DNA of 32,463 bases from Candidatus Kuenenbacteria bacterium CG08_land_8_20_14_0_20_37_23 (GTDB lineage Bacteria; Patescibacteriota; Patescibacteriia; UBA2196; GWA2-42-15), in NCBI GenBank assembly GCA_002778965.1, contig PEXX01000050.1:1-32463 (forward strand). Reading direction: 5' to 3'. Below are positions 3,748 to 32,463 of the stretch, piece by piece; positions within the stretch are counted from its first letter, which is position 1, and every line of letters begins with the position of its first letter. The notes under the pieces are model-generated. The model had not been told where the DNA came from and searched no databases. It saw nothing but the letters and a program-made list of their open reading frames with translations. The position numbers were made by a program, and so were the translations under genes.

Positions 3748-3804
3748 ATTTTGGCTAATCTTAGTATAATGTTATATTTTATAATGTTTTTGACATCAGA
3801 CAGC

Positions 3805-3833
3805 TTGACAAGTTTTCAAATGTATGCTATTAT
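3805..3833 (+). promoter_or_regulatory. Sigma70-type promoter with extended -10
   Basis: TTGACA (3805-3810), 17-nt spacer, TATTAT (3828-3833) preceded by TGn; predicted start ~3840. Confidence 0.75.
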
Positions 3834-3839
3834 CATATG

Positions 3840-4214
3840 ATATTTAAAATTGTGGATAAGTATGGCTATTTTATAAAAACAGTAATTAAAGATGACTGCT
3901 TTTACAAAATAGCTATAAGCCCAAGCATTGGCGATGATGAATATTTCTTCATACATTGCCTTGCTTGGTCGGCTATTTGACACTGTAGTTAAGCTTGAAA
4001 ATTTGGAGGTTAGGCGTTATCTTGACTTGGTTTTTATCCGGTTCCGACTGGATAATCCCATTTATTTAACGTCAATGAATAAAACAGTTTTGCTGTATTT
4101 ATTCTCTTACCATGCTTTTACATGGTTATTTTCTCTGATTCAGCGGAGAACATAACCTCCAATTTTTCCAGCAAAAACTCGCACAAAAATCCGACCGCTT
4201 GCGGCCGGATTTTT
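3840..4214 (+). ncRNA. Candidate structured non-coding RNA or long regulatory leader of unknown family
   Basis: Lies between a near-consensus promoter and an intrinsic terminator. Hairpins at 3865-3913, 3921-3968, 4034-4055 (UCCG loop), 4077-4104 and 4109-4126; long-range helix ~4001-4012/4153-4165 (GGAGGTTA...TAACCTCC). Confidence 0.65.
4185..4214 (+). terminator. Rho-independent terminator
   Basis: aaaaatccgaccg-cttg-cggccggattttt: 13-bp stem with one A/C mismatch, ending in a T run. Confidence 0.85.
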
Positions 4215-6540: not shown

Positions 6541-7071
6541 AATCCAAGCAAATCATAAGCCGGATTCTGTTCTATTTTGCGCCGTAGCGCGATAGTGTGG
6601 TCATCTATCTTAGCGAGCTGTCTTTGAGCTCTTGCACCAGGCAGGGTTTTCCGCATTTCTATGTCGCCATAGAGATGTGTGGGCTTTTACCCTCTTGAGA
6701 CAAAAGCTCAAGATTCCGCATTTTACAACGGAACGCATTTTCACCCTTACCCTTCACGTATTTTTCTTCTTGATAATTGAGATTCTGTAAAACAAAAAAG
6801 AAAAATATGTGAAGGGCGGTATATTTTCTGTGGCACTTTCCCTGGGTTTTAAAGTTGTCCGATAAAAAATTACGATCGTATATCTTTTATCGTACTTCTT
6901 ATACTCGGTCGCTTTTACGACTGCCATGACTCCGATTTTGGATCGGAGGGTGTCCGGACTTTCCTCCCCTCGCATAGTCTCTGCTATCCAATATTTTTTA
7001 CTGGTTGAATCATTTATTTGACTGAAGAAGCGAAGACTATGCGAGGGGCAACCACTTGATTTGCTTGGATT
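6541..7071 (-). ncRNA. rnpB: RNase P RNA, bacterial type A-like, with expanded helices
   Basis: Minus strand contains GAGGGGAGGAAAGTCCGGACA, AGGGAAAGTGCCACAGAAAATATACCGCC and the 3' ACAGAATCCGGCTTAT. The ends pair as a perfect 14-bp P1 (AATCCAAGCAAATC/GATTTGCTTGGATT). Confidence 0.95.
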
Positions 7072-29402: not shown

Positions 29403-32400
29403 TTAACGTAACAGCATCATCTTCATCGTTTTGCTGTAATCGCCAACTTCCAGACGGTAGAAGTAGACGCCACTTGTCAGGTCGCTAGCATCAAAAGTAA
29501 CTTTGTAGGTATTGGCAGTCTTGTGTTCATTAACCAAATCCGCTACTTTCTGACCAAGAACATTGTAAACACTGAGTTTTACTATGCCAGCTTTAGCAAT
29601 GGTGTAATTGATCAATGTTTCCGGATCGAATGGATTCGGATAGTTTTGGAATAATGAAAATTTGACCGGCACAGCAGTTTCAGCCGACGCCCAAACTTTA
29701 ATGCGGGCTGAAGCGCTCAATTTTTCATCAGCATTGATCCGGTAACTGTCCAGTTTCAATTCACTCACCTTTCCGTAGTTGCCAATGACCGAAAATAAAA
29801 TTTCCAAATATTCGCCGTGTTCTTTTAACGGTTTCAATGAAAAACCGGTAACTAATAATTTCCCAGATTCAACTTCATTCTGATAAACTTCAAAATTGCT
29901 GCCGTAATCGATTTTATTTATCCGGTCAAATTTCAATGCGCCTACATCAAAGGTCAGACAAATATCAAACGAATAAATCATCTGCTCTTTTTCAGCAACG
30001 ATTGGAATGCGGACAGTTTTTCCGGGCTGTGCCTCAGTATCTTTTAAATAGGAATATTTCATATTTGTCGAGGCAGCTTTGGCTAAATTTCCCGAATACG
30101 ACCAGTTGCCATCGACGTCACCCAGAATGACAGCATTAAAATCTTGATTCGATTCATCGCAACTCAATGCTGGATAAGATCGCTTATTCGGATTAAATTT
30201 CCAATCACCAATATAACAACTGGAACCGGGAGAAATTCCAACTGCATACTTGGCGATTAATGATGCGTCATACATCAGGACCGCCCCGTTTTTATCCACA
30301 TCCGCTGCAATTCTCTGTTCATCGCTGACATCCGGCAGCAGCCCCACAGCAATTCTTGCTGCCAAAGCAGCATCATATCCGAGGATACAGGGCTCGGTGA
30401 CAGGGGTGGTTTTCTCAGCCGAAAGAGTATAACTTGCTCCGTCTTGTAATGAATTGAAACTGAATGTGCCACTGGTTCCGGTTGTTTGCGATTGCGATGT
30501 ATCCCCGCTGATACTGACCACAGAATGGCTGAGCGGATTTCCCGAGCTAAAATAAGCGACATTGCCTGATAAAGTATGCGCAGCAACCGGATTTAATCCC
30601 GGTCTGTATAGCGACGGATCGCCGTACAAATTGAAATCAAACATATTTTGCCAGCCCACATAGCCCCAGGAACTGTACATAAAATGCGTTGAATAATAAA
30701 CTTTGGAATTAAACAGCGCATCGCCAACCTTATCGTCGCGATTAATTAAATAATAAAAGAAGTAATAGTCCAGAGAGGCGTTGCCCCCATGGTTTTGGTG
30801 GCACCAGCCAATGCTGTACCAAGATAACCGGCTCGAAGCCACAATTCCGGATGATCCGCGTTTAATCATTTCTTTGCCTAAGTTTGTGCTTTCAGGCCAA
30901 CCATTGTTACAGGAACAAGCAAAAATAACTGGTGAATAAGTATTACTCAATGATCCGCAATCGCCGGCAGAAATCATCGCATCAAAACTGAGTTCTCCAG
31001 CACTGGTCTCTGGTACGCCGTCTCCATCATCAGAACGCCACCATTTTCGGTAAGCTGAAGTTTTGCTGCCGTGCGCCCACCAGTTGATCGTGCCGTATTG
31101 TCCATCAGACCAGTCATTAACGACATTATTGTGAGTCAAGGATTTTGTGCAGGAATAGGCACTGGCATCCAAACCGGCTTTTTCATACATGGTTGTGTAA
31201 CTACCGCTGATGTTTTGAATCAAAACTTTATGAATCTCCATCAGAGTAGCGCCGTCGGTTTTGGCGTAACCGCGGTTATCTTCGTTAGTGTAATTGATCA
31301 TTGCCCCTAGTAACAAAGCATTTTTTTTCCACGATCCTCGGTTACTTTCAAAATTGATTAATTTGTTACATATCATGGAAACGGTGGAAGCATCGCTCCA
31401 GGGAATTCGTCCCACGATAACTTCCGGGACCCAATCAACATTGTCCTGACCATATTCACCGTAACGACTGTCTCCATCTGAATTCCAGTTGCCGGTTAAA
31501 TCAGCATAATAATAATCTGTTGGCGTATCTTCGCTGGTTGTGTCTGGTTTTGGACTGCACATGCGCATCGGAATATCTGAAACATCACCAATGATCAGCA
31601 CATACTCAATTCCGCACTCTGAATATTTATCAATTAAAAAATTCCTTATTTTTTGCGGCAGATCCGAGCCGCTGTAATTACTGTTAATCCAGGTCACTGT
31701 TACAACGTTTACCGAATAGCCAACGCTCTGCTTCCAATTCACGAATGACGTTACTGTATTTTGTAAAGCATCGGTGGTAATAATAACGTAATCATAGTAT
31801 GATGAACTGCTGTTAGGTTCAAAATACTTTTGATACCATTGTTTTGCTTCATCGTAATTATAAATCAAAATAGAAGCATTTCTGCCGGTCGGACTGTCTG
31901 CTAAATTTTGTTTTAAGGGAGAATATTTTTGTTTTGCAGCCGTTAAAGTATATTCAACTCTTATTGACGCGCTTTTAAAATAGACCAATTGTTGCGTAAC
32001 CGGATTGTAAGCAAAAGGTGTGAAATTTATGCGGACAAATTGGAATTGGCGATAGTTGCCCTCCCCGTCAAAAATTACAGCTTCCTGCGGATAAAAAGAA
32101 TCGGTAGAATAAGCAACTCTTTTATTCTCCCGAAAAATCCGCACTGCTTCATCGGACAGGACTGGATCGCCATCCATCGGGAGCATCATGGGAGCAGGCA
32201 CAATCCTATACTTACCATCAAGTAATTCTTTGTCCAAACTTACAATATTTATCGAATTGAATTCAGCGCCCGGCGGAACCGCTACCAAAAAAGTCTTGCT
32301 GGGGAGCATCGGTTTTCCCGGTGTCAGGGTGTTGCCAAAATTGTTCATTCGAATTTCCTGGGAGCTATCAGGCAGGTTGACTATTTCATAATTTTCGGCT

Positions 32401-32463
32401 GTCAAATCAACTGTCAATTGTTCAGCTTTTGCGTTGGAAGCCAATACGCATAACAAGACGAGT
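29403..32463 (-). CDS. C25 (gingipain-like) secreted peptidase with dockerin-like, cohesin-like and type IX secretion C-terminal sorting domains (5' partial)
   Basis: Catalytic-type 'WWAHGS' and 'VIFACSCNNGW'; dockerin-like 'DVDKNGAVLMYDASLIAKYAVG'; T9SS type A tail 'FQNYPNPFDPETLINYTIAKAGIVKLSVYNVLGQKVADLV...LTSGVYFYRLEVGDYSKTMKMMLLR'. Frame stays open to the window edge (LVLLCVLASNAKA, signal-peptide-like). Confidence 0.88.
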   Translation of the reverse strand, partial: LVLLCVLASNAKAEQLTVDLTAENYEIVNLPDSSQEIRMNNFGNTLTPGKPMLPSKTFLVAVPPGAEFNSINIVSLDKELLDGKYRIVPAPMMLPMDGDPVLSDEAVRIFRENKRVAYSTDSFYPQEAVIFDGEGNYRQFQFVRINFTPFAYNPVTQQLVYFKSASIRVEYTLTAAKQKYSPLKQNLADSPTGRNASILIYNYDEAKQWYQKYFEPNSSSSYYDYVIITTDALQNTVTSFVNWKQSVGYSVNVVTVTWINSNYSGSDLPQKIRNFLIDKYSECGIEYVLIIGDVSDIPMRMCSPKPDTTSEDTPTDYYYADLTGNWNSDGDSRYGEYGQDNVDWVPEVIVGRIPWSDASTVSMICNKLINFESNRGSWKKNALLLGAMINYTNEDNRGYAKTDGATLMEIHKVLIQNISGSYTTMYEKAGLDASAYSCTKSLTHNNVVNDWSDGQYGTINWWAHGSKTSAYRKWWRSDDGDGVPETSAGELSFDAMISAGDCGSLSNTYSPVIFACSCNNGWPESTNLGKEMIKRGSSGIVASSRLSWYSIGWCHQNHGGNASLDYYFFYYLINRDDKVGDALFNSKVYYSTHFMYSSWGYVGWQNMFDFNLYGDPSLYRPGLNPVAAHTLSGNVAYFSSGNPLSHSVVSISGDTSQSQTTGTSGTFSFNSLQDGASYTLSAEKTTPVTEPCILGYDAALAARIAVGLLPDVSDEQRIAADVDKNGAVLMYDASLIAKYAVGISPGSSCYIGDWKFNPNKRSYPALSCDESNQDFNAVILGDVDGNWSYSGNLAKAASTNMKYSYLKDTEAQPGKTVRIPIVAEKEQMIYSFDICLTFDVGALKFDRINKIDYGSNFEVYQNEVESGKLLVTGFSLKPLKEHGEYLEILFSVIGNYGKVSELKLDSYRINADEKLSASARIKVWASAETAVPVKFSLFQNYPNPFDPETLINYTIAKAGIVKLSVYNVLGQKVADLVNEHKTANTYKVTFDASDLTSGVYFYRLEVGDYSKTMKMMLLR

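Follow-up and report, generated by a model that had tools for sequence, protein, structure and literature searches.

A covarying five-way-junction RNA of Kuenenbacteria and a hairpin module that recurs in a second RNA of the class

In the window, the whole 32,463-nucleotide stretch of a Kuenenbacteria (Patescibacteria) genome analysed here, positions 3751–4214 between a DUF4012 gene and manC hold a putative RNA gene together with an upstream palindrome; apart from this palindrome, all features of the RNA given below lie on the + strand. The sequence-only reading of this DNA had described a promoter, a series of hairpins and an intrinsic terminator at this position, and both transcription signals were borne out. 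The promoter, of sigma-70 type with an extended −10 element (TTGACA-17-TATTAT with TGC; 3805–3833), matches the consensus at 11 of 12 positions, and the terminator (4185–4214) is evident in both the sequence and the minimum-energy fold, although a simple terminator scan missed it because of one mismatch. Promoter and terminator together predict a transcript of about 375 nt (3840–4214). At the far end of the window, positions 29403–32456 encode a 1017-residue protein with a Peptidase_C25 (gingipain-like) domain, a propeptide and a Por secretion tail domain, which is unusual for so small a genome.

Folding of positions 3834–4214 gave −130.8 kcal/mol, compared to −78.1 ± 5.1 kcal/mol for dinucleotide shuffles (z = −10.4), with none of 100 shuffles folding as well, and the core described below (3998–4167) alone reached z = −7.3. 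The hairpins noticed earlier, at 3861–3917 (H1), 3918–3974 (H2), 4035–4054 (with a UCCG loop), 4077–4104 and 4109–4126, all exist in the sequence and form in the minimum-energy fold. H1 and H2 are lineage-specific, having no conserved counterpart: the 5′ parts of homologues vary widely in length and sequence, and this part of the RNA is not conserved between genera. The proposal of a structured element of about 375 nt is thus upheld by its folding, whereas the conserved part is smaller, comprising 170 nt (3998–4167) and excluding the 5′ hairpins.

This conserved core, delineated by covariance model R1 and by covariation, is a five-way junction in which a 14-bp closing stem, P1 (GGAGGTT/AACCTCC), carries four arms. 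The 5′ strand of P1, AAAATTTGGAGGTT (3998–4011), contains a Shine-Dalgarno-like GGAGG and is paired in 95.5% of cells of alignment A4; its 3′ strand, AACCTCCAATTTTT (4154–4167), was placed by the covariation alignment. A long-range helix between GGAGGTTA (4005–4012) and TAACCTCC (4153–4160), which had been reported to enclose three arms, is indeed present, but it belongs to this longer stem and encloses four, P5 having been overlooked. Arm P2 spans 4013–4073, as supported by covariation and by model R3 (see below), and 16 of its 18 outer pairs covary; the stem previously seen at 4034–4055 is real but merely forms the tip of this arm. The tip, TATCCGGT-TCCG-ACTGGATA (4035–4054), is a GGY...RCU module whose G.U and G-C pairs are invariant in all eight homologues of the RNA, hereafter type A, and in 33 of 33 sequences of a second RNA, type B. 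Fold and covariation alignment place P3 at 4077–4104 and P5 at 4131–4150, both being imperfectly aligned in some members, and the alignment places P4 (ACCATG-CTTTTA-CATGGT; 4109–4126), with a near-invariant CCATGC.

We examined the eight sequences for compensatory changes. Standard pairs occupy 87.1% of cells, and two-sided changes occur in 33 of 63 pairs, compared to 13.8 ± 2.5 in shuffles and 9–16 in a control with partners slid, where the alignment is fitted to the model, kinship inflates the shuffle tests and the slid control retains kinship. Compensatory base changes across homologues, the general mark of a structured noncoding RNA family, are therefore present. They extend to P1, in which GGAG is retained in all eight strands and the stem of a sister-family genome (G006) reads GGAGAUU/AAUCUCC, a compensated change. 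This retained GGAG, which recurs as GGAGG in other multi-branch RNAs of the class, could also fit a ribosome-directed switch, in which the GGAGG of P1 would alternate between CCUCC and the 16S tail and would sense or modulate free 30S subunits; a palindrome held in common with translation genes (see below) points the same way. However, P1 is a stable 14-bp helix, and the compensated change in G006 favours structure over a fixed Shine-Dalgarno sequence, so that we consider such a switch improbable.

A blastn search of 95 relatives returned one clear homologue (G004), which directly follows the same DUF4012 gene, and otherwise short matches, for which reason we used synteny with DUF4012 and covariance models instead. 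Scanning downstream of DUF4012 in family members recovered the RNA in all six genomes examined, and R1, trained on those six, scored 117 bits in the window and 118–172 bits in six other Kuenenbacteria-family genomes. RA.bin79 and G006 both lay outside the training set and scored 149.5 and 45.8 bits, respectively, the latter match again being downstream of DUF4012. The eight type A homologues thus comprise seven genomes of the Kuenenbacteria family, this one included, and one of the sister family, and those of them whose records bear a name are Candidatus Kuenenbacteria. In 384 genomes of the class, R1 found no further strong member, and R2, a model retrained with RA.bin79 and G006, found none in the two other sister-family genomes. 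R1 scores of 21–33 bits were not counted as type A, since the reverse strands of true members reach 32.8 bits, and several matches in this range turned out to be type B. A pattern scan of the genome collection returned four true members; five other matches there, and four in the viral collection, lay inside ORFs and were discarded as chance.

One additional locus, L099 in G012, is a candidate member only: its stem contains GGAGGU, it has a tip resembling that of P2, and the palindrome lies some 54 bp ahead of its −35 element. In other families, loci L103–L108 contain multi-branch RNAs (type C) whose closing stem bears GGAGGA and which also have a CCCRAACAYGGG and a UCCGGUUUCGACUGGA hairpin; L104 and L108 apparently carry two such domains in tandem in one transcript, most of these loci show similar palindromes and promoters upstream, and no Rfam match was obtained where searched. 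Type C and L099 may be distant relatives of type A.

The upstream gene, DUF4012, is kept at the locus within the family and in G006, and the downstream genes are manC here (4267), hrcA-grpE-hsp20-dnaK in relatives and lepA in G006. The promoter layout (TTGACA-17-TA...T) is common to all eight homologues, the window sequence included, with TG ahead of the −10 element in each by inspection, and in the other homologues from the Kuenenbacteria family the core is followed by terminator-like hairpins. Varying downstream genes, combined with promoters of their own in 8/8 homologues and with the Kuenenbacteria terminators, argue that the RNA is a separate transcription unit, not a manC leader. The earlier description, structured noncoding RNA or long leader, is accordingly supported in its first half and disfavoured in its second. 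The case for a cis-acting leader or riboswitch of manC is the position of that gene directly downstream of the RNA in this genome; on the other hand, manC in relatives is located elsewhere and lacks the RNA there, the terminator is kept in Kuenenbacteria, and the constant downstream gene or operon that marks a cis-regulatory element was not found. Synteny with manC was dropped for this reason, and a leader role, largely refuted already, retains a very small probability. At L057 and L058, the interval that separates the type A terminator from hrcA contains a candidate compact hairpin transcript, AAAAGGCTGCCG ... CGGCAGCCTTTTGG, which has no Rfam match, is perhaps 6S-like and adjoins type A in several relatives.

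Similarly, a 75-aa ORF at 3928–4155 would allow an mRNA for a small protein, yet it exists in this genome only and has no Pfam match. None of the other seven homologues has a counterpart, an absence that takes the place of dN/dS, which requires a conserved ORF. Additionally, core indels are not in multiples of three. The ORF therefore does not look like a protein, as had been suspected, and the probability of an mRNA is practically negligible. Membership in a mobile or defence element (omega RNA, tracrRNA, retron or intron) would suit the variable 5′ part; however, none of the window proteins that we checked contains the domain of a transposase, a nuclease or a reverse transcriptase, the phage and plasmid records searched gave no match, and the RNA is inherited with DUF4012 at one locus, both in the family and in G006, making such an origin hardly credible.

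Upstream of the promoter, we found a palindrome, TTGGCTAA-TC-TTAGTATA (3751–3768), 54 bp from the −35 element. Its consensus is TTGGCTAA-N2-TTAGCCAA, with an exact TTGGCTAANNTTAG at 3751–3764, and with mismatches it lies either 43–45 or 54–55 bp upstream of the −35 element in all eight homologues. Among 300 shuffles of each sequence, at most one scored as well in six of the eight homologues, compared to 11 in G001 and 6 in G003. Class I activators such as CRP bind at sites spaced by helical turns; the two distances observed here are one helical turn apart and thus phased like an activator site, and from its position alone the palindrome is likely to be one. In G002 and G004, it could also serve as the terminator of the upstream gene. 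The TTGGCTAANNTTAG pattern occurs at 122 sites in 38 genomes, compared to 15 for a reversed control. In the family, the sites accompany what are presumably rpmH/dnaA, mraZ and tuf, ruvA and a spoT-like gene, as well as genes for ribosomal proteins and a tmRNA gene, although some fall inside genes and may be due to chance; these are names that we read from protein starts and gene order, not from a family search. We regard these sites as a candidate class-wide regulon.

The locus matches no known RNA family. A scan with all of Rfam (Rfam 15, 4227 families) gave no match above the gathering threshold at the locus, sub-threshold matches being noise, and likewise none at the homologue loci; in the literature searched, we found no description of the RNA. 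The only family above threshold in the window is RNase P, at 6541–7067 on the opposite strand, in agreement with the earlier placement of rnpB elsewhere in the window. At 527 nt compared to a 367-position model, this RNase P RNA gene contains large insertions.

The absence of tmRNA, SRP RNA and 6S RNA signatures, noted from the letters of the DNA, was confirmed, as RF00023, RF00169 and RF00013 all lack a match at the locus. A divergent housekeeping RNA of one of these three kinds would nevertheless account for two observations: the P2 tip of homologues (UCUGGUUUCGACUGGA) resembles the tmRNA 5′ motif UGGUUUCGACGGG, and RF00169 detects no SRP RNA among 18 genomes of the class at E ≤ 0.001, a result that leaves absence unproven, the Bacillus subtilis control also having been missed; overall, RF00169 was positive in 11 of 14 control genomes. 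Against such an RNA, the genome has a separate tmRNA with a different D-loop at C27:9938–10336 (94.9 bits, RF00023; G000, L125:430–850, G000 being this genome), and the resemblance of the P2 tip was dropped as a lead once this gene had been located. Covariation supports a five-way junction, not the single long hairpin, opened by a large central bubble, that marks 6S RNA, and the core contains no SRP domain IV sequence. Together with the lack of Rfam similarity, these observations make a divergent housekeeping RNA very unlikely. ARAGORN reported no tmRNA in the window, and it also missed the gene at C27:9938–10336, which is without the usual GGUUUCGAC motif. SRP RNA may be divergent in the class or replaced by another RNA, for which type B is a candidate.

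Type B emerged from a search for the P2 tip, whose pattern gave 22 matches in 384 genomes of the class compared to 10 in a control, nearly all within long hairpins, and many of these belong to a hairpin of about 92 nt with a bulge (ACGAYRAGCAUGG), a tip of the form GG(U/C)-loop-(A/G)CU and a UUCUU strand (for example L212:1501–1592, L222:965–1056 and L226:1501–1591). Two-sided evidence supports this structure, with covariation in 21 of 30 pairs among 11 sequences and 197 two-sided cells compared to 52 in shuffles among 33 sequences. Model R3, trained on type B alone, found it in 335 of the 384 genomes (~87%), mostly once, a count that takes in the P2 arm of G004. At the best-scoring loci, type B usually lies downstream of a clpP-like gene; it has its own promoters in many genomes and no match in Rfam 15. 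The CCAUGCU of type A P4 (4110–4116) is complementary to the AGCAUGG of the type B bulge, which may reflect pairing or coincidence.

R3, a model that had seen no type A sequence, selects P2 at the correct place and strand in 8/8 type A RNAs. In this genome, 4013–4073 is its only match, as is P2 in G004, and a separate type B RNA was not found by R3 in either genome. Several other genomes carry both RNAs, which argues that type A is not a simple replacement of type B. R3 scores on P2 range from 15.8 to 30.1 bits, with E down to 2.1e-4 per genome, and such modest scores mean that the shared module could reflect convergence on a stable UNCG hairpin.

Sequence comparison shows that type A has a conserved core but no conserved ORF, that it is bounded by a terminator and by a promoter, with a phased palindrome upstream, and that the hairpin module of its P2 arm also occurs in type B. 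We place the probability that it is a real, independent and undescribed family of noncoding RNA at roughly 0.95. As to function, type A would be stable and abundant, and its level would follow growth, because the palindrome is common to replication, division and translation genes. P2 would present the GGY...RCU hairpin to the partner of type B, probably a protein, and type A would work in trans, either as a second scaffold or as a sponge that competes for that partner. Where type B was not found as a separate RNA, namely here and in G004, type A may also stand in for it. Such a shared-partner mechanism has, in our judgement, about even odds. The chief alternative accepts a real trans-acting RNA and ascribes the likeness of P2 to type B to recurring stable UNCG hairpins, type A then being an RNA-only or differently bound scaffold. 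Its multi-junction shape, high stability and lack of an obvious antisense region are consistent with this, as are the low R3 scores on P2 in several genomes. Nevertheless, both RNAs carry GGY...RCU, with its invariant G.U pair, in the same setting, and P2 is the best R3 match in G000 and G004, so that we hold this alternative to be rather unlikely, if worth keeping in mind. Returning to a shared partner, we suggest tentatively that the class has an undescribed ribonucleoprotein system to which both type A and type B belong. In it, a near-universal, single-copy housekeeping RNA, present in genomes that yielded no standard SRP RNA, and lineage-specific multi-branch RNAs would use the same binding module and would be tied to growth genes by the palindrome.

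A covarying RNA family unrelated to 4227 known ones, from bacteria that are reduced, mostly uncultured and barely characterised in their RNA biology, is useful in itself, and type A also led to a second Rfam-absent RNA, present in ~87% of the genomes sampled from the class, and to a candidate class-wide palindrome. Genes retained in such small genomes are usually important, and both RNAs therefore point to basic cell functions. What is new is an RNA family and an architecture without known relative, rather than a proven new mechanism.

Compared to type B, type A has the same apical GGY-UNCG-RCU hairpin module but is a five-way junction instead of a single hairpin of about 92 nt, and is confined to one family and one sister genome, whereas type B is class-wide. 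With tmRNA (RF00023), it has in common a stretch, in several homologues, similar to the 5′ motif GGUUUCGAC; type A is, however, without tRNA-like ends, and the motif there forms a UNCG hairpin whose closing pair covaries. Cryo-EM structures have been reported for the large ornate bacterial RNAs GOLLD, ROOL and OLE (PMC12286853). Type A is likewise free-standing, strongly structured and multi-junction, with no conserved ORF, but its core is smaller (about 170 nt), its host lineage is different, and homology to these RNAs is not indicated, no Rfam family being matched. The protein-sequestering RNAs of the CsrB/RsmZ type carry many GGA loops, where type A has one copy of its module, and the two are unrelated in sequence and structure; the mode proposed here for type A would nonetheless be similar to theirs, in that a hairpin motif is presented to a partner that also binds elsewhere.
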